Positions 17,618 to 21,260 of a DNA stretch of 37,175 nt are shown here, piece by piece (position 1 is the first letter of the stretch; each line of letters begins with the position of its first letter). The stretch is from Vicinamibacteria bacterium (GTDB lineage Bacteria > Acidobacteriota > Vicinamibacteria > Fen-336), in NCBI GenBank assembly GCA_035570235.1, contig DATMML010000010.1:1-37175 (forward strand), given 5' to 3'. The notes under the pieces are model-generated. The model worked only from the letters and a program-made list of their open reading frames with translations, was not told the DNA's origin and did no database searches. A program made the translations under genes and the position numbers.

Positions 17618-19219
17618 ATGGCTCAGCTCAGCTTCGTTCACCTCTCGGGTCCGCGCCGGGGCGAGACCGACGAATTGCGCCTGCCCGCAATGATCGGCTC
17701 GGATCAAGGACTCGAAGTGATGGTGCCCGGCATCGCCCCCCGCCACGCCCTGGTCTTCGAGCGGGACGGCGAGATCGTGCTGCAGGATGGCGGCTCCGAC
17801 CTCGGAACATTCCTGGCCGGGGAGCCGGTGCAGGAGGCCGCCCTCCACGACGGCGACGTGCTGGAGCTGGGGCCGGAGGGGCCCAAGCTCCGCTTCCGCC
17901 ACGAGGGAGAGGAGCGCGTCCCCCTTCTTCGGGCCCTGCTCTGGGCCCGGCCGGAAGGGGCCATCCAGCTCTCCGACACCACCGGCTTCCTGCGGGCGGT
18001 GGTCCGGGAGACCGCCAGTCGCACCAGCCGCGCCTTCCGCTTCATCGCCATCGGCCTGGTCGTGGCGGGCGGCCTCTTCCTGGCCTGGACCCAGTGGCAG
18101 GCCCATCGGCTGGGGGCGGATGTGGCTCGCCTGCGCGAGGCCGTCCGGCGGGCAGAGGCCGCGCAGCGAGACTTCCACGAGCGGGTGGAGCAAGAGCGCC
18201 GGCGTTCGGAGGCCGAGCGCCAGGCCCTGCAAGCGCGGATCGAGGAAGCCCGCCAGCGCGAGGATGAGCTGAAACGCCAGCTGGGCGAGGCCTCTCCCGG
18301 CCAGGCACCGTCGGTGCGGGACGAGCTAGCGGCGGCCCGGGAGCGGCTGGTCAGCCTGGAGAGCGAGCGAACCGCAGGGGAGCGGGTCATCCGCGAGTAC
18401 GGCCCCGGCGTGTGCCTGGTCCAGGGGGCCTACGCGTTCTACGACGCGAGCGCGCATCCCCTCCGCTACAAGCTGGACGGCGACGGTCGGCCCCAGCGCG
18501 ACAACGAGGGCTGCTACGCGCTGGACCTGGCCGGCCCCGGGCCCGTGCACACCGTGGACTACCTGGGCACGGGCTTTCTGGTCGACCGTCGCGGCTTGGT
18601 TCTCACCAACCGCCACGTGGCCGAGCCCTGGTGGAACGACTCCTGCGCGGAGGCGGTCATGAACACCGGCTTCAAGCCCCGCTTCACCCTTTTCCGCGCG
18701 TTCTTCCCGCGCGAGCGCGAGGCCTTCGAGCTCGATGTGGACCGCCTCTCGGAGACGGTGGACCTCGCCCTGGTGCGGGTGAATCTCAAGGGTAAGCGGA
18801 TTCCCGTGATCCCCCTCGACCGCAGCGGGAAGGGGGCGGTGGCCGGGCAGCCGGTGGTGGTGGTGGGGTACCCGGCGGGCCTGGAGGCCATCCTGGCCAA
18901 GGCGGACAGCGCGGTGGTCAAGGACATCCTGGCCGCGGGCACCAGCTCGGAGCGGGTCACGGAGGCTCTCGCGCGCAAGGGTCTCATCCGTCCTTCCACG
19001 ACCCAGGGTCACATCGGGGACATCACCCAGACGGACATCGTCTTCGATGCCCCCACCACCCAGGGGGGCAGCGGGGGCCCCGTGCTCAACAAGAGCGGGG
19101 AGGTGATCGCGGTGGAATACGCGGTCCTCACCAAGTTCGGCGGCAATTCCTTTGGCGTTCCCATCGGATACTCCCTGGAGCTGCTCCGACCCCCAAAGGG
19201 GAAGGCGGGCGGACGGTGA
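17618..19219 (+). CDS. FHA domain-transmembrane-coiled coil-trypsin-like serine protease fusion
   Basis: 533 residues. Residues 1-95 are an FHA-like domain (LPAMIGSDQ, GIAPRHALV, LHDGDVLELG). One membrane helix follows (about 141-158), then a long charged coiled coil (165-255) and a trypsin/DegP-like protease (about 265-520) with the full triad: His333 in TNRHVAEP, Asp382 in VDLALVRV and Ser485 in TQGGSGGP. The FHA part should be cytoplasmic and the protease periplasmic. FHA domains bind phosphothreonine, which would couple kinase signalling to proteolysis. However, the Arg of the usual GR motif is replaced (IGSD) and the Ser of SxxH is Ala (APRH), so phosphate binding may be lost. There is no PDZ domain, unlike DegP. 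Starts 4 nt after the lipoprotein gene. Confidence 0.9.
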   Translation: MAQLSFVHLSGPRRGETDELRLPAMIGSDQGLEVMVPGIAPRHALVFERDGEIVLQDGGSDLGTFLAGEPVQEAALHDGDVLELGPEGPKLRFRHEGEERVPLLRALLWARPEGAIQLSDTTGFLRAVVRETASRTSRAFRFIAIGLVVAGGLFLAWTQWQAHRLGADVARLREAVRRAEAAQRDFHERVEQERRRSEAERQALQARIEEARQREDELKRQLGEASPGQAPSVRDELAAARERLVSLESERTAGERVIREYGPGVCLVQGAYAFYDASAHPLRYKLDGDGRPQRDNEGCYALDLAGPGPVHTVDYLGTGFLVDRRGLVLTNRHVAEPWWNDSCAEAVMNTGFKPRFTLFRAFFPREREAFELDVDRLSETVDLALVRVNLKGKRIPVIPLDRSGKGAVAGQPVVVVGYPAGLEAILAKADSAVVKDILAAGTSSERVTEALARKGLIRPSTTQGHIGDITQTDIVFDAPTTQGGSGGPVLNKSGEVIAVEYAVLTKFGGNSFGVPIGYSLELLRPPKGKAGGR

Positions 19220-19247
19220 TGCCGGCTCCGCCCTACCCCCGCCGAGC

Positions 19248-20507
19248 ATGACCTTTTCGCGACGGGACCTCGGGTGGGCCGCCCTCCTGGCCCTTCTCGC
19301 CGCCGCCTTCCGCCTGCCCGGGCTCGGCTATCCCCCGGAGACCTACTTCGACGAGGTCTACCATGCGAAGGCCGCGGCCCAGTACCTAGCGGGAGAGGCT
19401 CCCACGGAATGGGTTCATCCCCCCACGGCCAAGCTCCTGATCGCGGTCCCCGTGTGGCTCTTCGGGTACAAGCCTTGGGCCTGGCGGCTGGCTCCCGCCC
19501 TCGCCGGTATCCTTCTCGCTCCCACCTTCTTTCTCTTCGCCCGCCGCCTCCTGGCTACGGAGCGCGCCGCGCTCCTGGCCTCCGTCCTGCTGCTCTCGGA
19601 CGGGGTCTACCTGGTCCAGAGCCGCATCGCCATGACCAACATCTTCGCCGTCCTCTTCCAGGTGGCGGCCGCCCTCCTGATCCTGGACTCCGTCCTCGGC
19701 GAGCGTCTGCCGGGGTGGAAAATGATCGGGGCCGGGCTCCTCCTTGGCCTCGCCCTCTCCACGCGCTGGACGAGCCTTTGGGCGGCGGCCTTTCTGGGCC
19801 TCGTGGTCCTGGTGGTGCGGGGCCGCCGGATCTTCCGCTTGCGGGAGCTGCTGCTCACGGCCGTGGCCTTCGTGGTCCTGCCCGTCGTCATCTATATCCT
19901 GAGCTACTTGCCGCTGCAGATCCTGCGACCCGGCCTGGAGCCTTGGCACCACCACCTTTCGGAGTTGTGGGACCTCCAGCTGGAGGTCTGGCGGTACCAC
20001 GCAAACCTGAACGCCACCCATCCCTACTTCAGCAAGTGGTGGACCTGGCCCTGGCTCTATCGGCCGACCTGGTACTTCTACCAGCCGGTGGGGGACAGGG
20101 TGCGCGGGATCATGGCCATCGGGAACCCCGCGCTCTGGTGGGTGTCGGTTCCGGTCACCCTTTATTCCCTCCTGACCGGGCTCAAGGCCCGGGACCCCCG
20201 GCGGCTCTTCGCGGCCGCCGGCTTCGCCCTGCTCTACCTTCCCTGGGGCATCTCGCCCCGCACCCTCAACTACAGCCACTACCTCTTCGAGGCCATCCCC
20301 TATGCCTGCTTGAGCCTGGGCATGCTGCTCGACGGGTGGTGGGACGGACGGGCCGGCCCCTTGGCGCGCGGCTATCTCGCGGTCGTGGTCCTCCTCTTCT
20401 TCTTCTTTCTGCCCTTCCTGACCGCCCTGCCCGTCCCCTCCACCTGGTACTTCGGCCAGACACCCCTCCATCTCCGCCTCTGGACGTGGTTCCCGAGCTG
20501 GGTCTAA
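19248..20507 (+). CDS. Dolichyl-phosphate-mannose--protein mannosyltransferase-like (PMT, GT39) membrane protein
   Basis: 419 residues from ATG 19248, 28 nt after the protease gene; an in-frame upstream start at 19152 would overlap that gene and read a hydrophilic shadow. About ten membrane helices. The first outer loop has the acidic pair of GT-C enzymes in TYFDEVYHAKAA (Asp35-Glu36), and EWVHPPTAKLLIA is typical of the PMT family. Such enzymes move a sugar from a polyprenyl-phosphate carrier to Ser/Thr of secreted proteins or to lipid A. The GT2 gene at 24645-25343 could make the donor. The C-terminal WYFGQTPLHLRLWTWFPSW is a hydrophobic tail. Confidence 0.88.
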   Translation: MTFSRRDLGWAALLALLAAAFRLPGLGYPPETYFDEVYHAKAAAQYLAGEAPTEWVHPPTAKLLIAVPVWLFGYKPWAWRLAPALAGILLAPTFFLFARRLLATERAALLASVLLLSDGVYLVQSRIAMTNIFAVLFQVAAALLILDSVLGERLPGWKMIGAGLLLGLALSTRWTSLWAAAFLGLVVLVVRGRRIFRLRELLLTAVAFVVLPVVIYILSYLPLQILRPGLEPWHHHLSELWDLQLEVWRYHANLNATHPYFSKWWTWPWLYRPTWYFYQPVGDRVRGIMAIGNPALWWVSVPVTLYSLLTGLKARDPRRLFAAAGFALLYLPWGISPRTLNYSHYLFEAIPYACLSLGMLLDGWWDGRAGPLARGYLAVVVLLFFFFLPFLTALPVPSTWYFGQTPLHLRLWTWFPSWV

Positions 20508-20575: not shown

Positions 20576-20594
20576 GCCCGGGAAGGGAGCGGCG

Positions 20595-21260
20595 ATGGCT
20601 TTGATCAGTGAAGAGGTGGCGGCACAGCTCAAGGAAGAGTTCGCAAAGCTCGTCCACCCCGTGCGTCTGGCCGTTTTCTCCCAGGCCCTGGCCGATCCCG
20701 AGTCGGATCAGGTGCGTCGGCTGATCGAGGAGCTGGGCGCTCTCGACCCCCGCCTCAAGGCCGAGTCCTACAACTCCGTCCTCGACGCGGAAAAGGTGAA
20801 GGCCCTCGGGATCGCCCGCATCCCGGCCGTGGCCATCCTGGGAGAGAACAAGGACTACGGCATCCGCTTCTACGGCCTCCCCTCCGGCTATGAGTTCGGG
20901 TCCCTCATCGAGGCCATCCTCGACGTCTCCAGCGGGCAGAGCGGCCTCGGGGAGGAGACCCGGGCTGGCCTGGCCGCCCTGGCGCACCCCGTCCACATCC
21001 AGGTCTTCTCGACGCCGACCTGACCGCATTGCCCCCGGGCCGTGCGCCTGGCTTTCCAGTTTGCGCTCGAGAGCGACAAGATCACCGCGGACGGAGTGGA
21101 GGTGACGGGGTACCCGGAGCTGGCGCGGAAGTACCGCGTCTCCTCGGTTCCCAAGACCGTCTTGGGGGACAGCGTGGAGTTCGTGGGGTCGGGGCCGGAG
21201 TCCATGCTGCTGAAGCACGTCCAGGACGCGGCGGCCCAGGTCCCCGGCGTCACGACCTGA
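20595..21260 (+). CDS. Selenoprotein: two-domain thioredoxin-fold disulfide oxidoreductase with U-P-H-C active site (TGA = Sec143)
   Basis: 221 residues if TGA at 21021-21023 is read as selenocysteine; start ATG with GGGAG close upstream. The frame before the TGA ends VHIQVFSTPT and continues in the same frame PHCPRAVRLAF, so TGA replaces the first Cys of a CxxC site (TPTCPHCP in the family). The layout matches protein disulfide oxidoreductases of the PDO/glutaredoxin-like family, with two thioredoxin folds and about 220 residues. The second fold has Sec143, Cys146 and cis-Pro186 (SSVPK). The first fold (about 20-110) has lost its CxxC (ADPE in that place) but keeps its cis-Pro (RIPA). Cys146 is the only Cys. 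A 17-nt hairpin 11 nt after the TGA fits a bacterial SECIS. A caller ignoring Sec would report 142- and 72-residue halves. Confidence 0.9.
21035..21051 (+). promoter_or_regulatory. Bacterial SECIS element of the disulfide oxidoreductase
   Basis: CCGGGCCGTGCGCCTGG folds as a 6-bp stem (one G-U pair) with loop CGUGC. It begins exactly 11 nt after the TGA and is exactly 17 nt long, the same layout as in E. coli fdhF (11 nt, then a 17-nt hairpin with GU in the loop). A G is the second base of the loop, as in the bacterial SECIS consensus. SelB should bind here. Confidence 0.8.

Follow-up and report, generated by a model that had tools for sequence, protein, structure and literature searches.

Archaeal protein disulfide oxidoreductases (PDOs) are thermophile enzymes that carry two thioredoxin folds per chain and two Cys-Cys sites, one CXXC per fold (PMC7465337). 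In the S. solfataricus PDO, mutagenesis has assigned the thioltransferase activity to the C-terminal site, while the isomerase activity needs both sites (PMC7465337). PDO receives its electrons from a thioredoxin reductase and passes them on to peroxiredoxins (PMC7465337, PMC7278568), and a 2020 review described PDOs as exclusive to thermophiles (PMC7465337). The corresponding family, TIGR02187, is listed in NCBIfam as 'protein disulfide oxidoreductase' (NCBI model name PDO_seleno_TRX). Zhang et al. (2006, PMC1794560) described selenocysteine (Sec) members of TIGR02187 from Carboxydothermus hydrogenoformans and Symbiobacterium thermophilum under the name 'Homolog of AhpF, amino-terminal domain', and two reviews place the family, with its UxxC, among the selenoproteins (PMC9312934, PMC13188914). 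The 2006 work also counted Acidobacteria among the Sec users (PMC1794560). In the available portions of these three sources (PMC1794560, PMC9312934, PMC13188914), acidobacteria are not named for the TIGR02187 Sec forms, and beyond family listings we found no literature on acidobacterial Sec-PDOs.

The window analysed here, meaning the whole stretch of 37,175 nucleotides from a Vicinamibacteria bacterium, contains a PDO gene interrupted by an in-frame TGA (Table 1). The evidence strongly supports the view that this is a real selenoprotein gene of the PDO type, with the structure and mechanism put forward in the original prediction, and we estimate the probability that it encodes a Sec-containing TIGR02187 reductase at about 0.9. 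The original prediction had left open whether a Sec form of PDO had been described; the sources above show that it has, so that the Sec-PDO as a kind is already known. The unusual part is the inactivated N-terminal site, and we found no description of a one-site version.

Table 1. Features of the PDO locus, in positions of the window.
Feature	Position	Strand	Remark
PMT-family mannosyltransferase	19152..20507	+	co-directional; 87 nt upstream of PDO start
Purine-rich Shine-Dalgarno-like stretch GGGAAGGGAG	20580..20589	+	5 nt upstream of ATG; read from the sequence, role presumed
Selenoprotein PDO coding sequence	20595..21260	+	221 residues with Sec143; ATG 20595, stop TGA 21258-21260
D34-P-E-S37, degenerate N-terminal active site	20694..20705	+	alignment of 92 loci and tree; CxxC in most relatives
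Pro77, cis-Pro position of N-terminal fold	20823..20825	+	kept (R-I-P-A-V); alignment
In-frame TGA, codon 143	21021..21023	+	putatively read as selenocysteine
Cys146	21030..21032	+	putative resolving Cys of U-P-H-C site; sole Cys in PDO
Bacterial SECIS-type hairpin CCGGGC-CGUGC-GCCUGG	21035..21051	+	apical G-U 21042-21043, flanked by covarying C21041/G21044
Pro186, cis-Pro position of C-terminal fold	21150..21152	+	S-S-V-P-K, facing U-P-H-C; alignment

Family membership and loss of the N-terminal site

The translated window PDO matches the TIGR02187 profile over nearly its whole length (E 5e-71, residues 6-211 against model positions 2-208/209) with 238.3 bits, above the cut-off of 185 for full-length membership, and U143-P-H-C146 stands where the family has its C-terminal CxxC or UxxC. 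This single match spans both sides of the TGA, confirming the claim that the frame stays open across it with family sequence before and after. The closest solved structures are the PDOs of P. furiosus (1a8l) and P. horikoshii (1j08), with E about 1e-41; 1a8l aligns to residues 1-210 with a Cys opposite U143, which, together with the profile match, is the full-length alignment that had been proposed as a check. Pfam profiles mainly detect the second fold. A structure prediction made with two sequences as input gave a pLDDT of 44.8, so the model was discarded as too poor.

With the Sec proteins of Carboxydothermus and Symbiobacterium the window PDO shares the family and the UxxC; it may differ from them in having no N-terminal CxxC. 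The archaeal PDOs (1a8l, 1j08, S. solfataricus) are alike in their two thioredoxin folds, aligned end to end, with their C-terminal CPYC opposite UPHC. However, where they have two Cys-Cys sites the window PDO has a single Sec-Cys site, its first fold lacking one, and its host is not known as a thermophile. In AhpF, only the second of two tandem folds is redox active. The AhpF N-terminal domain (TIGR03140; 1zyn, 4o5q) resembles the window PDO in this tandem arrangement and matches weakly in sequence, with 69.5 bits against a membership cut-off of 502.9, but the window PDO is a free-standing protein of 221 residues, is not fused to an FAD/NAD domain, and has Sec for Cys.

Relatives were sought in 198 genomes, 100 of which have TIGR02187 matches above the cut-off, and 92 loci were gathered. 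Counts were made on 90 of these, leaving out L068, whose site was mis-picked in the count, and L113 (Acidobacteria bacterium isolate AA29, from a contig labelled 30 cm depth and so apparently from soil), which duplicates G009. In the alignment of the 92 loci, relatives carry CEYC or CETC opposite D34-P35-E36-S37, and the window PDO is thus a member of the family that does not have one CXXC per fold. The prediction of an N-terminal fold that has lost its CxxC holds, and as C146 is the only Cys in the protein, any thiol- or selenol-based redox chemistry would depend, as predicted, on the one U-P-H-C pair. Pro77 and Pro186 occupy what we take, from the thioredoxin fold in general, to be the cis-Pro positions of the two folds.

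The N-terminal CxxC is gone in the family to which the window belongs and in the sister family, where (D/H)-P-E-S or D-P-G-S stands instead; it is separately lost in family f5 (G-S-E-S, A-P-E-T) and missing in a few single alignment rows. The family tree requires at least six changes of N-site state, and at least two Sec-bearing clades appear to have lost a working N site independently of each other. Outside the class, a wider sample of the phylum gave 34 matches above the cut-off, 28 of them without TGA and six TGA forms, and all 16 readable sequences keep the N-terminal CxxC. Because of this, the two-site form is most likely ancestral and the one-site form derived, as judged on an unrooted tree. 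Loss of the N site showed no association with Sec in independent pairs on the tree (3 usable pairs, median p 1): most Sec forms retain both sites, and some Cys forms also have no N site. One genome (G081) carries both a Sec PDO with an intact N site and a diverged Cys paralogue, C-A-S-C, with the N site lost (L112 and L027).

The replacement of the N site is conserved within clades, as (D/H)-P-E-S in the window's order and as G-S-E-S in another family, which could mean that the N-terminal fold has acquired a new non-thiol function, such as the binding of a partner or ligand, and that the PDO is not a general thiol reductase. We consider this unlikely, since simple common descent could explain the conserved replacement and the gene order suggests neither a partner nor a ligand. 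Among the relatives, whose neighbouring ORFs were taken from a composition-filtered listing, several loci of the window's family (L050, L055, L057) have, 40-70 nt before the PDO, an ORF whose C-terminal end resembles that of the window's mannosyltransferase, and in families f5, f8, f9 and f17 a small CxxC-type ribbon protein (MSDRKYRQRGYQD...AFDDLFK) holds the upstream place. Neither the mannosyltransferase nor the ribbon protein points to a redox partner, and within the window no redox gene stands next to the PDO. One further predicted protein of the window, at 17618-19219, combines an FHA domain with a trypsin-like protease domain in a fusion.

Decoding of the in-frame TGA

The host genome (5.7 Mb, 138 contigs, 99.6% complete) was checked for the Sec machinery, and all four genes are present: selA (524 bits), selB (341.9 bits), selD (352.8 bits, with its own in-frame UGA in CAGU) and tRNA-Sec (71.4 bits, anticodon TCA). 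The selD gene is itself a selenoprotein gene (L018, 1501-2421 of G000:C103), the TGA lying in CAG-U-ASK at the N-terminal site. In a comparison of 50 genomes the Sec forms of the PDO track selB, which scores above its cut-off in 34 of the 35 genomes that have a Sec form and in 3 of the 12 that have Cys forms only (Fisher test, p = 1.5e-6, a value that overstates independence because the genomes are related; the tree nevertheless calls for at least 10 changes between Sec and Cys). The sole Sec-form genome without selB, G002, does have selA, and the nine Cys-only genomes lacking selB have no selA above the cut-off either. In L057 (G008), from the same family as the window, TGC stands for TGA, yet the genome keeps selA and selB; this is likely a switch from Sec to Cys with Sec decoding retained.

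The stretch just downstream of the TGA can form a hairpin with stem CCGGGC/GCCUGG and loop CGUGC at -9.6 kcal/mol. The bSECIS model of PMC13188914 has an apical loop of 3-9 nt with G in the first two positions, 16-37 nt from the UGA, and an energy of at most -7.5 kcal/mol; the window loop begins 17 nt past the UGA, is stable enough, and also fits the N1-G-[G/U]-N-N2 style apical pattern of the same source. The E. coli fdhF hairpin, whose G23 and U24 have been reviewed for their importance (PMC8659212), is alike in its apical G-U flanked by G and C (G-G-U-C) and in its nearly identical distance from the UGA. It differs in stem sequence and in an apical loop shifted by one nucleotide, and most relatives of the window PDO have an extra 3'-side base compared with fdhF. 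Folded alone, 53 nt of the window are not more stable than their own shuffles (z -0.44), and the SECIS claim therefore rests on comparison.

We number positions from the first base after the TGA, so that the apical G-U is G19-U20. Both members of pair 18-21 are third codon positions; 75 of the 76 Sec loci have G-C or C-G there, and 6 of the 14 Cys loci have a Watson-Crick pair. Pair 12-27, also at third codon positions, is Watson-Crick in 67 of 76 Sec loci against 6 of 14 Cys loci. No other third-position pairs equal the mutual information of these two. When codons were exchanged between sequences column by column, which leaves each protein and each column's codon set as they are, the means were 55 (18-21) and 36 (12-27), and not one of the 5,000 shuffles came up to the observed 75 and 67. 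The hairpin has a mean energy of -10.6 kcal/mol in the Sec loci, -7.9 in the shuffles and -6.9 in the Cys forms. On independent branches, positions 18 and 21 change the same way in 5 of 5 pairs where both differ (p = 0.06, with too few pairs), which is the more cautious figure because the codon shuffle leaves relatedness in. The stem varies among relatives, pair 17-23 being formed in 55 of 76, and a hairpin at the SECIS position also folds in 9 of 14 Cys forms.

As DNA does not tell the identity of the inserted residue and relatives carry Cys, a mischarged or near-cognate tRNA might read through the UGA with another amino acid, for instance Cys or Trp. This is very improbable in view of the full selA, selB, selC and selD set with a Sec-type SelD, the covarying SECIS-type hairpin, and the lack of selA and selB in 9 of 12 Cys-only genomes.

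In table 11 TGA is a stop, the PDO gene's own end is a TGA, and plain ORF calling halts at codon 143, so one may also ask whether the TGA simply terminates a 142-residue product, leaving the downstream half as a decaying pseudogene remnant. Most of the above-cut-off matches in the 198-genome search have exactly one TGA, and at codon 143 it is present in 76 of 90 loci, the other 14 having TGC or TGT. This recurrence at one codon, as read from the alignment, is far beyond chance, and it fits the pattern of a bacterial selenoprotein, a TGA opposite Cys in homologues and conserved across species. The downstream half is 59-79% identical to family members, and between close relatives the excess of changes at third codon positions is equal before and after the TGA (for L050, 0.14/0.10/0.35 before, 0.13/0.10/0.41 after). 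The downstream half is therefore translated and constrained as coding sequence just as the upstream half is, and its synonymous sites retain the SECIS pairing. In a genome that decodes Sec, termination at this TGA is barely credible. Homologues continue past the TGA rather than all ending there. Of the two hypothetical fragments expected from a standard annotation, plain ORF calling does give the first, of 142 aa, whereas its list contains no further in-frame fragment of at least 80 aa.

A sequencing or assembly error for TGC or TGT, conceivable in a draft of 138 contigs with TGC at this codon in the related G008, is negligibly probable, since the same TGA recurs in dozens of independent genomes of many families and tracks selB.

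Proposed function and wider meaning

Under the Sec reading, as far as sequence comparison goes, UGA 21021-21023 would be decoded by SelB and tRNA-Sec, directed by the hairpin at 21035-21051, to give a cytosolic PDO of two thioredoxin folds with redox activity in the second only. Sec143 would attack the substrate disulfide and Cys146 would resolve the selenenylsulfide; by analogy with the family, the U-P-H-C pair may then be re-reduced by a thioredoxin reductase-type flavoprotein. In the host genome L114 scores above the cut-off as a thioredoxin reductase, and three longer flavoproteins (L115-L117) contain a TrxR-like domain; all are possible electron donors for the PDO. In each of the three longer proteins the N-terminal part reads like a cyclic-nucleotide-binding domain, the TrxR-like part being C-terminal. 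The first fold has lost its CxxC and kept its sequence, and probably its fold; its remaining task would most likely be that of a scaffold or docking domain, on the model of AhpF's N-terminal domain, and to this role, taken alone, we give only moderate confidence. Since isomerase activity needs both sites in the archaeal enzyme, the one-site Sec form is predicted to be a reductase or thioltransferase, for example for peroxiredoxins, and a poor isomerase if one at all. One might speculate that Sec lets the PDO drop its second site, so that in at least two acidobacterial clades an isomerase-capable enzyme would have become a dedicated one-site reductase with a docking-only first fold, in parallel to AhpF; we offer this as a tentative and somewhat doubtful suggestion.

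Contrary to the thermophile-only statement of PMC7465337, this class of acidobacteria commonly carries TIGR02187 proteins. The Sec forms add a large pool of acidobacterial selenoproteins that has so far drawn little attention and whose genes are truncated at the UGA by simple gene callers. The forms with no N site, having a single Sec-Cys pair and no other Cys, offer a clean system for redox work and selenium labelling. With at least 10 swaps between Sec and Cys on one tree, and selB coming and going, the family provides a good natural series in which to measure the benefit of Sec to a thiol oxidoreductase.
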